DNA of 64,000 nt from a bacterium. Its GTDB lineage: Bacteria > SAR324 > XYD2-FULL-50-16. Position numbers and translations under genes: made by a program. The notes beneath the pieces were generated by a model. That model saw nothing but the letters and a program-made list of their open reading frames with translations. It searched no databases and was not told the origin of the DNA. Positions within the stretch are counted from its first letter, which is position 1. The number at the start of each line of letters is the position of its first letter. The DNA lies in assembly GCA_024275165.1 (NCBI GenBank), contig JAJRZQ010000006.1, positions 1 through 64,000 on the forward strand, read 5' to 3'. Positions 20,294 to 23,270 of this stretch are shown piece by piece.

Positions 20294-20926
20294 TCACGCT
20301 GTTTCGGTTTGCAGTTGGTACAGCAGCAGGGTCCCCTTGCCCTCGCCGTACTCCCGCTTTTCCACCAGTCGAAACGCCTCCGCTAGGGAAGGGTGGACGC
20401 TCTTTTCTTCCTCCTTCCAATTTTGCCCTTTCCAGAGTAGAATGTATCCTTGAGGCGCCAGCAATTTCTTACCCAAGGCCAAGAGGTGAGCCGTTTTATC
20501 CAAGGCACGCGCCATTACGAGACCAAAGCGTTCTCCCTGGGCAAAAAGGTCTTCATAACGGAGGTTTCTTGCCTCGAAGTTCGACAAACCGAGGTGGGCC
20601 TTACAAAAACTTTGAAAGGCGCTTTTCTTCCCTACCCGCTCCACGGCGTGGATTTCCACCCTGGGCAAGGCAATGGCCAAGGGAATCGCCGGCAAGCCCG
20701 CCCCGCTGCCTAAATCGACCCAAGCAAGCCCTGGGCTGATCTCGGCAAAATGCTCTAGGTTTAAAGCTTGGAGGCTGTCACAGAGATGTCTGTTGAAAAT
20801 ATCCTCTTGAGTGGAGTTCGCGATCAGGTTCACCCTGCGGTTCCAATCCAGCAGGTAGGCACTAAAATCTTTAAGCTTTTTTATTTGCCCCTCATGGAGG
20901 GGAAAGCTTTCAAAACAATTTTTCAC
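20294..20926 (-). CDS. rsmG: 16S rRNA m7G527 methyltransferase
   Basis: A 210-residue SAM-dependent methyltransferase of the GidB family that modifies G527 of 16S rRNA. Seen: NRRVNLIANSTQEDIFNRH near the N-terminus, SAM-binding VDLGSGAGLPAIPLAIALP, the VERVGKKSAF acidic-loop region, and the VMARAL motif. Length fits the family. In many bacteria it lies beside mnmG or parAB; here it is alone, convergent with metF and divergent from the fliN-like gene. Confidence 0.93.
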   Translation of the reverse strand: MKNCFESFPLHEGQIKKLKDFSAYLLDWNRRVNLIANSTQEDIFNRHLCDSLQALNLEHFAEISPGLAWVDLGSGAGLPAIPLAIALPRVEIHAVERVGKKSAFQSFCKAHLGLSNFEARNLRYEDLFAQGERFGLVMARALDKTAHLLALGKKLLAPQGYILLWKGQNWKEEEKSVHPSLAEAFRLVEKREYGEGKGTLLLYQLQTETA

Positions 20927-21049
20927 AAGCTTTTAAAGTTTGGTTTGATTTTAGCATAGACTCAAGCAAAATTCTCCCTTTGCATGGGAGAACCCTAAAA
21001 CACGGGGCTGGATCGGGCAAGTAAGATTCAGCTGTAACGGAGGAAAAAC

Positions 21050-22297
21050 ATGGCTGAAATGGATGATTTGAATCTCGATGAAGAGATAGATCTGGGCAGC
21101 CTTGACGATTTGGATTCAGGCGACGACTTCAACCTCGACGATGACCTGGATACGGGCCTGGATGATGACCTCAACATGAACCTCGGAGACGACCTGGACG
21201 CAGACCTCGACAGCAATGACGATCTCGGTAGCGACCTGGACCTCGGTGACGACCTGGACGCAGACCTCGACAGCAATGACGATCTCGGTAGCGACCTGGA
21301 CCTCGGTGACGACCTGGACGCAGACCTCGATAGCGACCTGGAAGCAGACCTCGACAGCAATGACGATCTCAACCCAGCTATAGAAGAAGAGGAGAAGGAC
21401 ATCGACTTTTCCGGCTTAGAGACCGAATTGGGCGATGAAGCCTCCGTCGATACCCCCGAAGTTGCCGAGATTGAAGATTTAGACGACTCCAGCCTAGATG
21501 ACGAACTCGCCAGTTTTAGCGCGGAGGCCAAAGGCTCCGCTTCCTCCAAGCCGGACACAAGCCCTCAGGTGGAACTCGACCAAAGCATGCAGGTCCCAGA
21601 GCAGATGCTCGACGCAGAAGGCTTGGCCAAAAACCCCGATACGACAGAGCCCCTCGAGCTTGCCGAGGATTCCGCGCTGGATGAAGAGCTTGCGCCCCTC
21701 CCCCTAGACGACGACCTCGAGGCGGAAGGCGCGGCTCACTTTGAAGAAGAAATCACCGACGAACTAGAAGATAGCGACAGCCCCTTTTCCCTACCCACAA
21801 CCGATCTAGAAGATGAAGACGACTTTGCGGAACCAGCGGAACTGGTGGAAATCAACAGCGCGGACAATGACTTTGATCTCGGTGACGACCTCATCGAAGA
21901 CGAGCCGAGCTTAGAAGAAGAAGATTTTTCTTTTGAAGAACCAGAAGAAAATGAAAGCAAAATGGATGTCGACCTTTCCGAGCAGGCCTTCGACTACGGC
22001 GCCCCCTTTGAAGAAGCCCCCAGCACCAGCTATCAAGTCACCGAGGAGGAACAAGGCGGCTTGATGGAAAAAAGCCTGCTCTTTAAGCTGCCTCACCTGC
22101 TGAAAGTCGAAGTGGGTCACGCCAGTTTAAAGGGCGAAGACATCACCAACCTCACCTACGGCAGCATCATCGAACTGGACCTAAAAACAGGGGACCCCGT
22201 GGATATCCTTCTCGGCGGCGAAGTGATCGCCAAGGGAGAAGTGATACGCATCAACGAAGACCAATTAGGGGTACGCATTACCCGCATCAACCATTAG
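21050..22297 (+). CDS. fliN: FliN-like switch protein with very long acidic repeat region
   Basis: A 415-residue protein. The last 75 residues (LLFKLPHLLKVEVGHASL...) are a SpoA/FliN C-terminal domain, with the TYGSIIELD, DPVDILLGGEVIAKGEV and GVRITRI strands found in the flagellar switch. Normal FliN is about 80-140 residues. Here an N-terminal region of some 330 residues is almost wholly Asp, Glu, Leu, Ser and Asn, including a 60-bp tandem repeat. That region must be very acidic and probably disordered. A FliM-like gene follows 10 bp downstream, so the pair likely forms a C-ring. RBS: GGAGG before ATG 21050. A role in a type III secretion C-ring instead of a flagellar one cannot be excluded. 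Confidence 0.75.
   Translation: MAEMDDLNLDEEIDLGSLDDLDSGDDFNLDDDLDTGLDDDLNMNLGDDLDADLDSNDDLGSDLDLGDDLDADLDSNDDLGSDLDLGDDLDADLDSDLEADLDSNDDLNPAIEEEEKDIDFSGLETELGDEASVDTPEVAEIEDLDDSSLDDELASFSAEAKGSASSKPDTSPQVELDQSMQVPEQMLDAEGLAKNPDTTEPLELAEDSALDEELAPLPLDDDLEAEGAAHFEEEITDELEDSDSPFSLPTTDLEDEDDFAEPAELVEINSADNDFDLGDDLIEDEPSLEEEDFSFEEPEENESKMDVDLSEQAFDYGAPFEEAPSTSYQVTEEEQGGLMEKSLLFKLPHLLKVEVGHASLKGEDITNLTYGSIIELDLKTGDPVDILLGGEVIAKGEVIRINEDQLGVRITRINH
21181..21330 (+). repeat. 60-bp tandem repeat inside the fliN-like gene
   Basis: Bases 21181-21240 and 21241-21300 are identical except one base (GGAGAC versus GGTGAC), followed by about 30 bp of a third copy and a further partial copy. Each unit encodes the 20 residues LGDDLDADLDSNDDLGSDLD. 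The period keeps the reading frame, so copy-number change would vary the protein length without a frameshift. Confidence 0.9.
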
Positions 22298-22307
22298 GCA
22301 AGCTCCG

Positions 22308-23270
22308 ATGAATCAGGCGATTTGGGAAAATTACGACCTCACCCGAGGGGAACAGATCCAACAGGGCTATTTTGCCGCCTTAGAAGTGGTCATGCGCCGC
22401 TTTGTCTCCGAGATGGAATCCTTCTTCTTCGATCAGCTTAAAATTCATTGCGAGTTCGACTACAGCATCAACTCCAACCGGCAGTTTCGCCAAATCTTAG
22501 CCGACATCCCTCAGCCCTGCCCTATCTTTCGCTTTCAATTTTCTCCCTGGCGGGGAGAGAGTTTGCTCATCATGGACAACGCCTTAGCCAACCTGTTTTT
22601 ACAACAAAAAGAACTGGTCGATACAGGCCGGGTTTTGATTCAAAATGAGTTTCAGGTCACCAAACAAAACTTCGGCCCCTTGGAGCGGGCAGCAAAAACC
22701 ATGCTGAACGCCTTTGCCAAATCTTGGCGGAAACTAGCCCCTGCCGAGGCTCAAGTCACCACCTTGGTGGCCAACCGGCTTAAGGCTAAGGTTTTGGCCC
22801 CCACCGAATCCACCGTGATGGTCAAGGTAGGCCTCCGGTACAAAAAATTTCAGAGCCATTGGGATTTTTGTTTCTCTGCCTACGAGTTGGACCCGCTTTT
22901 AAAAAAATACGGAAAAAAAGCCTTGCTCACCGGCTATTGCGAAACCGAGCCCCGCAAAGAGGAAAAAAGTCACTTAGAGCAATCCCTATTGACCCAATCC
23001 TGCTACCAGATTCAGGCCCTCGCGGGAGAACTCACCCTCTCCCCCGCTCAATTAAAAGAAGCTTTGAAGCAAAAAACAATCCTCCCCTTTAAGGCTTACT
23101 TAAATGGGGATTTGGTCGTCCATCTCAACGGTCAGCCGCAATTGAGCGCCTGCTTGGGTGAAACCCACGGCCAATTGGCCTTGCAGATCAACGGGCGCTA
23201 TCAAGTCAAAAAAGAACAGGTCAAGCAAAAACCCGTTTCCTTCAAACCCTTAAACTTCCCTACAAGCTAA
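22308..23270 (+). CDS. fliM: Divergent FliM-like flagellar switch protein
   Basis: A 320-residue protein that starts 10 bp after the fliN-like gene. Residues about 60-210 resemble the FliM middle (CheC-like) domain: PCPIFRFQFSPWRGESLLIMDN and then a long helix pair. The C-terminal about 80 residues (CYQIQALAGELTLSPAQLK...) form a SpoA-type domain that would pair with FliN. The N-terminal CheY-binding EIDAL motif of classical FliM is not evident, and the GGxG motif in the middle domain is missing, so it is a divergent member. Probable role: flagellar C-ring, taking the CheY signal. Its TAA overlaps the TAG of convergent thiE. Confidence 0.6.
   Translation: MNQAIWENYDLTRGEQIQQGYFAALEVVMRRFVSEMESFFFDQLKIHCEFDYSINSNRQFRQILADIPQPCPIFRFQFSPWRGESLLIMDNALANLFLQQKELVDTGRVLIQNEFQVTKQNFGPLERAAKTMLNAFAKSWRKLAPAEAQVTTLVANRLKAKVLAPTESTVMVKVGLRYKKFQSHWDFCFSAYELDPLLKKYGKKALLTGYCETEPRKEEKSHLEQSLLTQSCYQIQALAGELTLSPAQLKEALKQKTILPFKAYLNGDLVVHLNGQPQLSACLGETHGQLALQINGRYQVKKEQVKQKPVSFKPLNFPTS

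Follow-up and report, generated by a model that had tools for sequence, protein, structure and literature searches.

An acidic FliN and a divergent FliM form a conserved gene pair in SAR324 bacteria, a possible accessory of the flagellar motor

SAR324 (Candidatus Lambdaproteobacteria), widespread uncultured marine and groundwater bacteria, encode a FliN with a long acidic N-terminal arm, FliN-ac, next to a divergent FliM, which we named FliM2. The two genes are adjacent and co-occur, and their products have the FliN and FliM folds. FliM2 has one origin by sequence comparison and has lost the motifs that contact FliG and CheY, while the acidity of the FliN-ac arm is conserved. With somewhat less than even confidence, we propose that the single flagellar motor of SAR324 has these two proteins as a dedicated accessory pair, in which the arm would act as a multivalent docking brush. 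Among the papers listed by our searches of open-access full text, none described a comparable pair in its title or the beginning of its abstract. The starting point was the window, the whole stretch of 64,000 nucleotides that was analysed, and its features are collected in Table 1.

Table 1. Position and basis of features of the fliN-ac/fliM2 locus in the window
Feature	Position	Strand	Basis
FliN-ac, 415 aa	21050..22297	+	Open reading frame with ATG and ribosome-binding site, Pfam, relatives
Ribosome-binding site GGAGGA of FliN-ac	21039..21044	+	Sequence
Acidic arm of FliN-ac, aa 1-337, predicted disordered	21050..22060	+	Composition; AlphaFold2 model
Exact 60-bp tandem repeat in the FliN-ac arm, two copies plus 23 bp	21188..21330	+	TRF, self-comparison
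Conserved island A of the arm, aa 117-130	21398..21439	+	Alignment of 9 family-f1 members
Conserved island B of the arm, aa 138-156	21461..21517	+	Alignment of 9 family-f1 members; AlphaFold2 model
SpoA (FliMN_C) domain of FliN-ac	22073..22294	+	Pfam and profile matches to FliN structures
Conserved element TGGTTTGATTTTAGCAT upstream of FliN-ac, at -109 relative to its ATG	20941..20957	+	Conservation in upstream regions of relatives
FliM2, 320 aa, FliM-middle and SpoA, with neither a CheY-docking motif nor a GGxG loop	22308..23270	+	Pfam, alignments, model
FliM2 C-terminal tail	23220..23267	+	Alignment of 25 rows

Composition and repeats of FliN-ac

FliN-ac consists of a long acidic region followed by a short C-terminal SpoA domain, as a first-pass annotation made from the sequence alone had described. 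The single Pfam domain was FliMN_C/SpoA (PF01052) at residues 350-413 of 415 (E 5.5e-15; 55.5 bits, cut-off 23.8). This domain is FliN-like, in agreement with the name first given to the protein, and in profile searches it matched flagellar FliN from Salmonella (8umd_D) and Thermotoga (1yab) with E-values of 1.8e-18 and 2e-22, respectively. Unlike flagellar FliN, FliN-ac carries an acidic arm (211-680 aa across relatives), falls below the TIGR02480 equivalog cut-off (61.6 versus 84.05 bits), and has a polar residue at the position of Salmonella FliN V113 in 25 of 41 sequences (Q in 23, R in 2), including that of the window.

The arm was initially called Asp-rich, which its 79 Asp justify, but the region is really rich in both acidic residues, since residues 1-337 also contain 52 Glu, with only 5 Lys and no Arg, and Asp and Glu together make up 39%. 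FliN-ac has a computed pI of 4.05, and its net-acid fraction of 0.31 was by far the highest among the window's 52 non-overlapping ORFs with 150 aa or more (runner-up, 0.06). Disorder prediction, proposed earlier as a check, gave the arm a mean pLDDT of 45.8 in an AlphaFold2 model; this points towards disorder but is weak evidence, as the SpoA part was also poorly modelled from an alignment of so few rows (nine). The sole predicted helix of the arm in the same model, residues 147-158, overlaps island B.

The exact 60-bp tandem repeat reported at first pass is real. TRF called a repeat at 21180-21334 (2.6 copies, 97%), and bases 21188-21270 are identical to those 60 further on, an 83-bp run without mismatch, compared with a longest 60-offset exact run of 16 bp in 1000 codon shuffles. 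In-frame change of the repeat in the arm, also suggested at that stage, is plausible in view of the tandem repeats in related arms described below. The first 117 residues, searched against the window's own genome, matched only themselves, so no copy of the arm was found elsewhere in it.

FliM2, the downstream partner

FliM2 starts ten bases 3' of FliN-ac. Pfam detected the FliM middle domain (PF02154, 38.6 bits, cut-off 27), and the C-terminal SpoA domain scored 18.8 bits with PF01052, under the 23.8 cut-off, although the modelled domain aligned to 8umd_C and to FliN structures. The AlphaFold2 model, built from 25 rows, had a pLDDT of 80.8. Its top solved structure by Foldseek was the FliM 8umd_C (E 1.5e-22), and a second structure aligner matched it to the FliM 4fhr_A (Z 24.7, rmsd 1.9, 178 aligned residues).

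Despite sharing the FliM-middle and SpoA fold with flagellar FliM, FliM2 differs from it in features that define the switch. Excerpts of one study state that in FliM the GGXG motif binds FliG, FliM_C binds FliN, and the N-terminal region binds CheY-P (PMC6700473). The GGxG FliG-docking loop was found at the aligned position in 0 of 29 FliM2 versus 21 of 21 ordinary SAR324 FliM, and the N-terminal CheY-docking motif in 0 of 29 versus 19 of 21. FliM2 also misses the TIGR01397 cut-off (66.2 versus 219.6 bits), with fliM_switch as its best NCBIfam family, and has an extra conserved C-terminal tail. This tail contains an invariant Phe followed four or five residues later by W, F, Y or L (25 of 25 rows), and the last 25 residues are net positive in 23 of 25 rows. 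We rejected the candidate of a CheC/FliY phosphatase, whose active-site motif occurred in 0 of 25 FliM2.

In a tree, FliM2 occupies one side of a branch with 100/100 support that separates it from ordinary FliM, and by this evidence FliM2 is one clade with a single origin. With a mean distance of 2.29, versus 0.47 for ordinary FliM, FliM2 is the faster-evolving of the two, and its distances correlate with those of FliN-ac beyond what ordinary FliM accounts for (partial r 0.62, permutation p 0.0005); both comparisons used 13 of the genomes having all three genes. ORFs shorter than 280 aa and three FliM-FliG fusion ORFs (L137-L139) were dropped from FliM comparisons. In two of these fusions, L137:390-1600 (genome G007) and L138:274-1323 (G042), Pfam placed the FliM middle domain together with the FliG middle domain, and the third, L139:1-899 (G009), resembles them by eye.

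Distribution of the pair across SAR324

A FliM2 profile matched 40 of 52 SAR324 genomes at 41 loci, all with at least 216 bits. Among the 383 genomes searched, the next-best match (141.5 bits) lay in a genome outside the phylum, and the profile search placed FliM2 in 0 of the 331 non-SAR324 genomes. The SpoA profile of FliN-ac recovered the identical 40 genomes and 41 loci (at least 108 bits; next, 70.4). Acidic FliN, which the first-pass annotation proposed to seek in relatives, is thus present in 40 of 52 SAR324 genomes; that annotation would have been contradicted by a long N-terminus that was absent or untranslated in relatives, and every full-length relative has an acidic N-terminus in frame with SpoA.

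FliN-ac and FliM2 were adjacent in all 37 loci examined, 35 of them by neighbour clustering and two (L050 and L056) from individual matches, as the ORF picker chose other frames there. Neighbour clustering revealed no further near-universal neighbour. Reading from the tables, the pair is present in 14 of the 15 genomes with completeness of at least 90% and contamination of at most 5%; the exception, G014 (93% complete), is one of 12 pair-less genomes among the 52. In another pair-negative genome, G027, a contig breaks off (L174) just after the upstream element and the first part of an acidic, repetitive reading frame, so some of the 12 absences are assembly breaks. A genome-collection scan, with a 9-row alignment as query, gave nine named matches, labelled Candidatus Lambdaproteobacteria (2), SAR324 cluster MAGs (2), Deltaproteobacteria (2), "bacterium" (2), and Cyclobacteriaceae (1).

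Evolution of the arm

The part of FliN-ac preceding SpoA varies widely in length, from 211 to 680 aa, but has a net charge of -60 to -260 in 31 of 31 full-length proteins (31 of 41 rows, the window's included, after truncated or N-containing rows were set aside). The least acidic arms both belong to family f4, with Asp and Glu fractions of 0.19 in L056, whose start was perhaps called too early, and 0.22 in L052. Arm sequence and repeats differ by lineage. Tandem repeats of at least 85% identity occurred in 14 of 39 arms, including that of the window, two of which (L047 and L056) look like frame or non-acidic artefacts.

Short acidic-hydrophobic motifs exceeded shuffles (DLDL alternation, z 17; [LMIFV][DE][LMIFV]G, z 23), with scores that include repeat expansions and related sequences. 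A gapless motif search of 24 arms returned a DLDLG low-complexity pattern with a score of 240 versus 144-153 in eight shuffles, accompanied by zero-background-frequency warnings. Among the nine members of family f1, per-residue conservation was 0.71-0.77 in the bins containing the two islands, compared with 0.28-0.67 in the rest of the arm and 0.76-0.84 in SpoA, and the islands contain invariant columns. These islands fit the early suggestion that the region might bind a partner. An island common to families f1 and f3 is suspected by eye only.

A CheY-docking motif hidden in the arm was considered and rejected: with a matrix of 14 distinct FliM N-terminal motifs, 0 of 39 arms reached p <0.05 against shuffles (median p 0.56). 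Separately, the window's own genome encodes a 345-aa protein (L057:12109-13146, C47) that has a SPOR domain and whose Asp-rich N-terminus resembles the one in FliN-ac; it lies near a FliN with repeated DPFEAAM motifs.

The upstream region

The conserved element upstream of FliN-ac reads GG-N10-GC and resembles the sigma-54 promoter consensus. The site TGGNYTGNTTTTNGCAT, which fits this pattern, had 22 matches in 52 genomes versus 1 for a control pattern. Of these, 16 precede fliN-ac and share its strand, including two at contig breaks. More broadly, a sigma-54-like TGG-N10-GCW was found in 25 of 33 fliN-ac upstream regions (those of the 41 loci with enough N-free sequence) versus 14 of 257 other starts, the sequences being related. 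Only 3 of 21 ordinary fliM had a sigma-54-like site, and a sigma-28 promoter upstream of fliN-ac was not above shuffles. In most of family f1 the sigma-54-like site overlaps the first codons of the divergent rsmG, so its conservation there has two possible causes. We regard a sigma-54-like promoter for the fliN-ac operon as a lead from sequence patterns.

The window's rsmG has an apparent frameshift at its start (20926-20957, minus strand), whether genuine or introduced by assembly. Upstream, a short frame with an ATG looks like the N-termini of relatives; from GTG 20926 the remainder is read in a different frame.

Other motor components

In the window's own genome, FlhA and FliG are each encoded once, as is an ordinary FliM that has a CheY-docking motif, and there are three further FliN of 119, 147 and 167 aa. 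FliN-ac is therefore read as an accessory, not as the motor's only FliN. These other FliN and FliM had been overlooked at first pass, as had the neighbouring co-conserved FliM2, its loss of FliG and CheY motifs, and the phylum-wide conservation. Across SAR324, ordinary FliM was found in 52 of 52 genomes, which makes co-occurrence with flagella uninformative for the pair, and FlhA in 51 of 52, its strong matches being single or split pieces. We rejected a second flagellum or injectisome, given the one FlhA and one FliG of the window's own genome.

FlhF was above cut-off in 50 of 52 SAR324 genomes. In the window's own genome, FlhF (pI 9.0), a MinD-type ATPase that we read as FlhG (pI 9.2), and FliA are neighbours. 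FlhF and FlhG act at the flagellar base in other bacteria, and they also serve flagella in bacteria without an acidic brush, a point against the docking-brush model proposed below. Two further observations concern these genomes: many of family f3 have two ordinary FliM besides FliM2, yet one FlhA, and a 269-aa protein without Pfam or NCBIfam match adjoins flhA in the window's own genome (L150:6716-7525, minus strand).

Proposed role and alternatives

FliM2 keeps a SpoA domain but lacks the FliG contact, and the simplest model is accordingly that FliM2 and FliN-ac assemble through SpoA contacts into an accessory complex. Excerpts of PMC4832279 describe SpoA heterodimers and homodimers as the means by which FliM and FliN associate. 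The complex, its location, its partner and its purpose are steps that we infer. Located on the C-ring or close to it, the complex would present the acidic arms, which if disordered would form a polyanionic brush with repeated DLDLG-type acidic-hydrophobic short motifs and a single helical island in the family of the window's FliN-ac. Such a brush may recruit several basic partners at once. FlhF and FlhG, both basic in the window's own genome, are the first candidates by virtue of their charge, and FlhG is described as binding FliM/FliY in other bacteria (excerpts of PMC7226244). Gain or loss of repeats would lengthen or shorten the brush in frame. The suggestion made at first pass that the arm tunes C-ring assembly is possible, with the direction unspecified.

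Two known systems led us to the docking-brush model. In Campylobacter jejuni, a duplicated FliN/FliY C-ring likewise gives a single motor additional SpoA proteins. There, FliY is the sole binding partner of the additional FliN, and flagellar number control by FlhG is disturbed in C-ring mutants, but the excerpts of this study mention no acidic arm and no degenerate FliM partner (PMC6946799). The arm also resembles, by analogy only, the HubP/FimV landmarks, which in the excerpted accounts have a long, acidic and unstructured region in the cytoplasm that differs in length and in number of repeats even among close species (PMC12918733, PMC7226244). HubP is a hub for ParA-type ATPases, its repeat region binds ParA1, and it anchors FlhG (same sources); however, it sits in the membrane and carries LysM and FimV/TPR domains, whereas FliN-ac has only SpoA by Pfam. 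FimV_core (TIGR03505) matched 0 of 52 SAR324 genomes, with control genomes equally silent.

The loss of GGxG could also mean that the pair never joins the motor. As a cytosolic regulator, it would be a SpoA-based sink for free FliN/FliM or FlhG that sets C-ring number. This fits the lack of GGxG and of the CheY motif in 29 of 29 FliM2 that nonetheless keep SpoA, and the operon is not beside other flagellar genes. Gene position says little, however, since the ordinary FliM of the window's own genome also sits outside any flagellar cluster, and a sink leaves the kept acidity unexplained. We consider this explanation rather unlikely.

That the pair is a redundant old switch paralogue, its arm a product of functionless low-complexity drift, appears distinctly improbable. 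The wide variation in arm length and sequence and the lineage-specific repeats would be expected of drift, but the pair is retained over deep divergence, all 31 full-length arms remain strongly negative, the islands have columns without variation in nine family members, FliM2 preserves its fold, and conservation is high in the SpoA domain of FliN-ac.

We are comparably doubtful of a role in protein export, in which the arm would be a polyanionic platform beneath the export gate that holds either FliH/FliI or basic substrates with their chaperones. FliN is the FliH docking site in Salmonella (excerpts of PMC6700473), and the FliM2 tail is conserved and mostly basic with an invariant Phe. Against this, the FliH-contact position V113 is polar in 25 of 41 FliN-ac and hydrophobic in the six ordinary SAR324 FliN that we read, which makes FliH or CheY binding by the FliN-ac SpoA doubtful. 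In the window's FliN-ac, the hydrophobic FliH/CheY-binding patch (V111-V113) instead reads V-I-R. Membership of a second, SctQ-like type III system is scarcely credible, for although SctQ/HrcQ proteins have SpoA domains too (NCBIfam SpaO_YscQ, 50 bits versus a cut-off of 100.8), the window's own genome has one FlhA, strong FlhA matches across the phylum are single or split pieces, and FliM2 has fliM_switch as best family and flagellar FliM as nearest folds.

Returning to the accessory pair, a more specific version, which we think rather improbable as a whole, is that FliM2 and FliN-ac form a non-torque layer on the C-ring, with the arms making up a polyanionic brush beneath the rotor that is possibly condensate-like. 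HubP's role as a hub would then pass to the flagellar base, which would catch FlhF, FlhG and further basic clients and be tuned by in-frame change of the repeats. The parts of the C-ring rank among the flagellum's most conserved components. If the accessory-pair reading is true, these parts can be reused for recruiting instead of turning, and a FliM without both switch-defining contacts has been kept phylum-wide together with an acidic arm. The pair would offer a clean test of what FliM requires and of disordered acidic repeats as hubs at the flagellar base.
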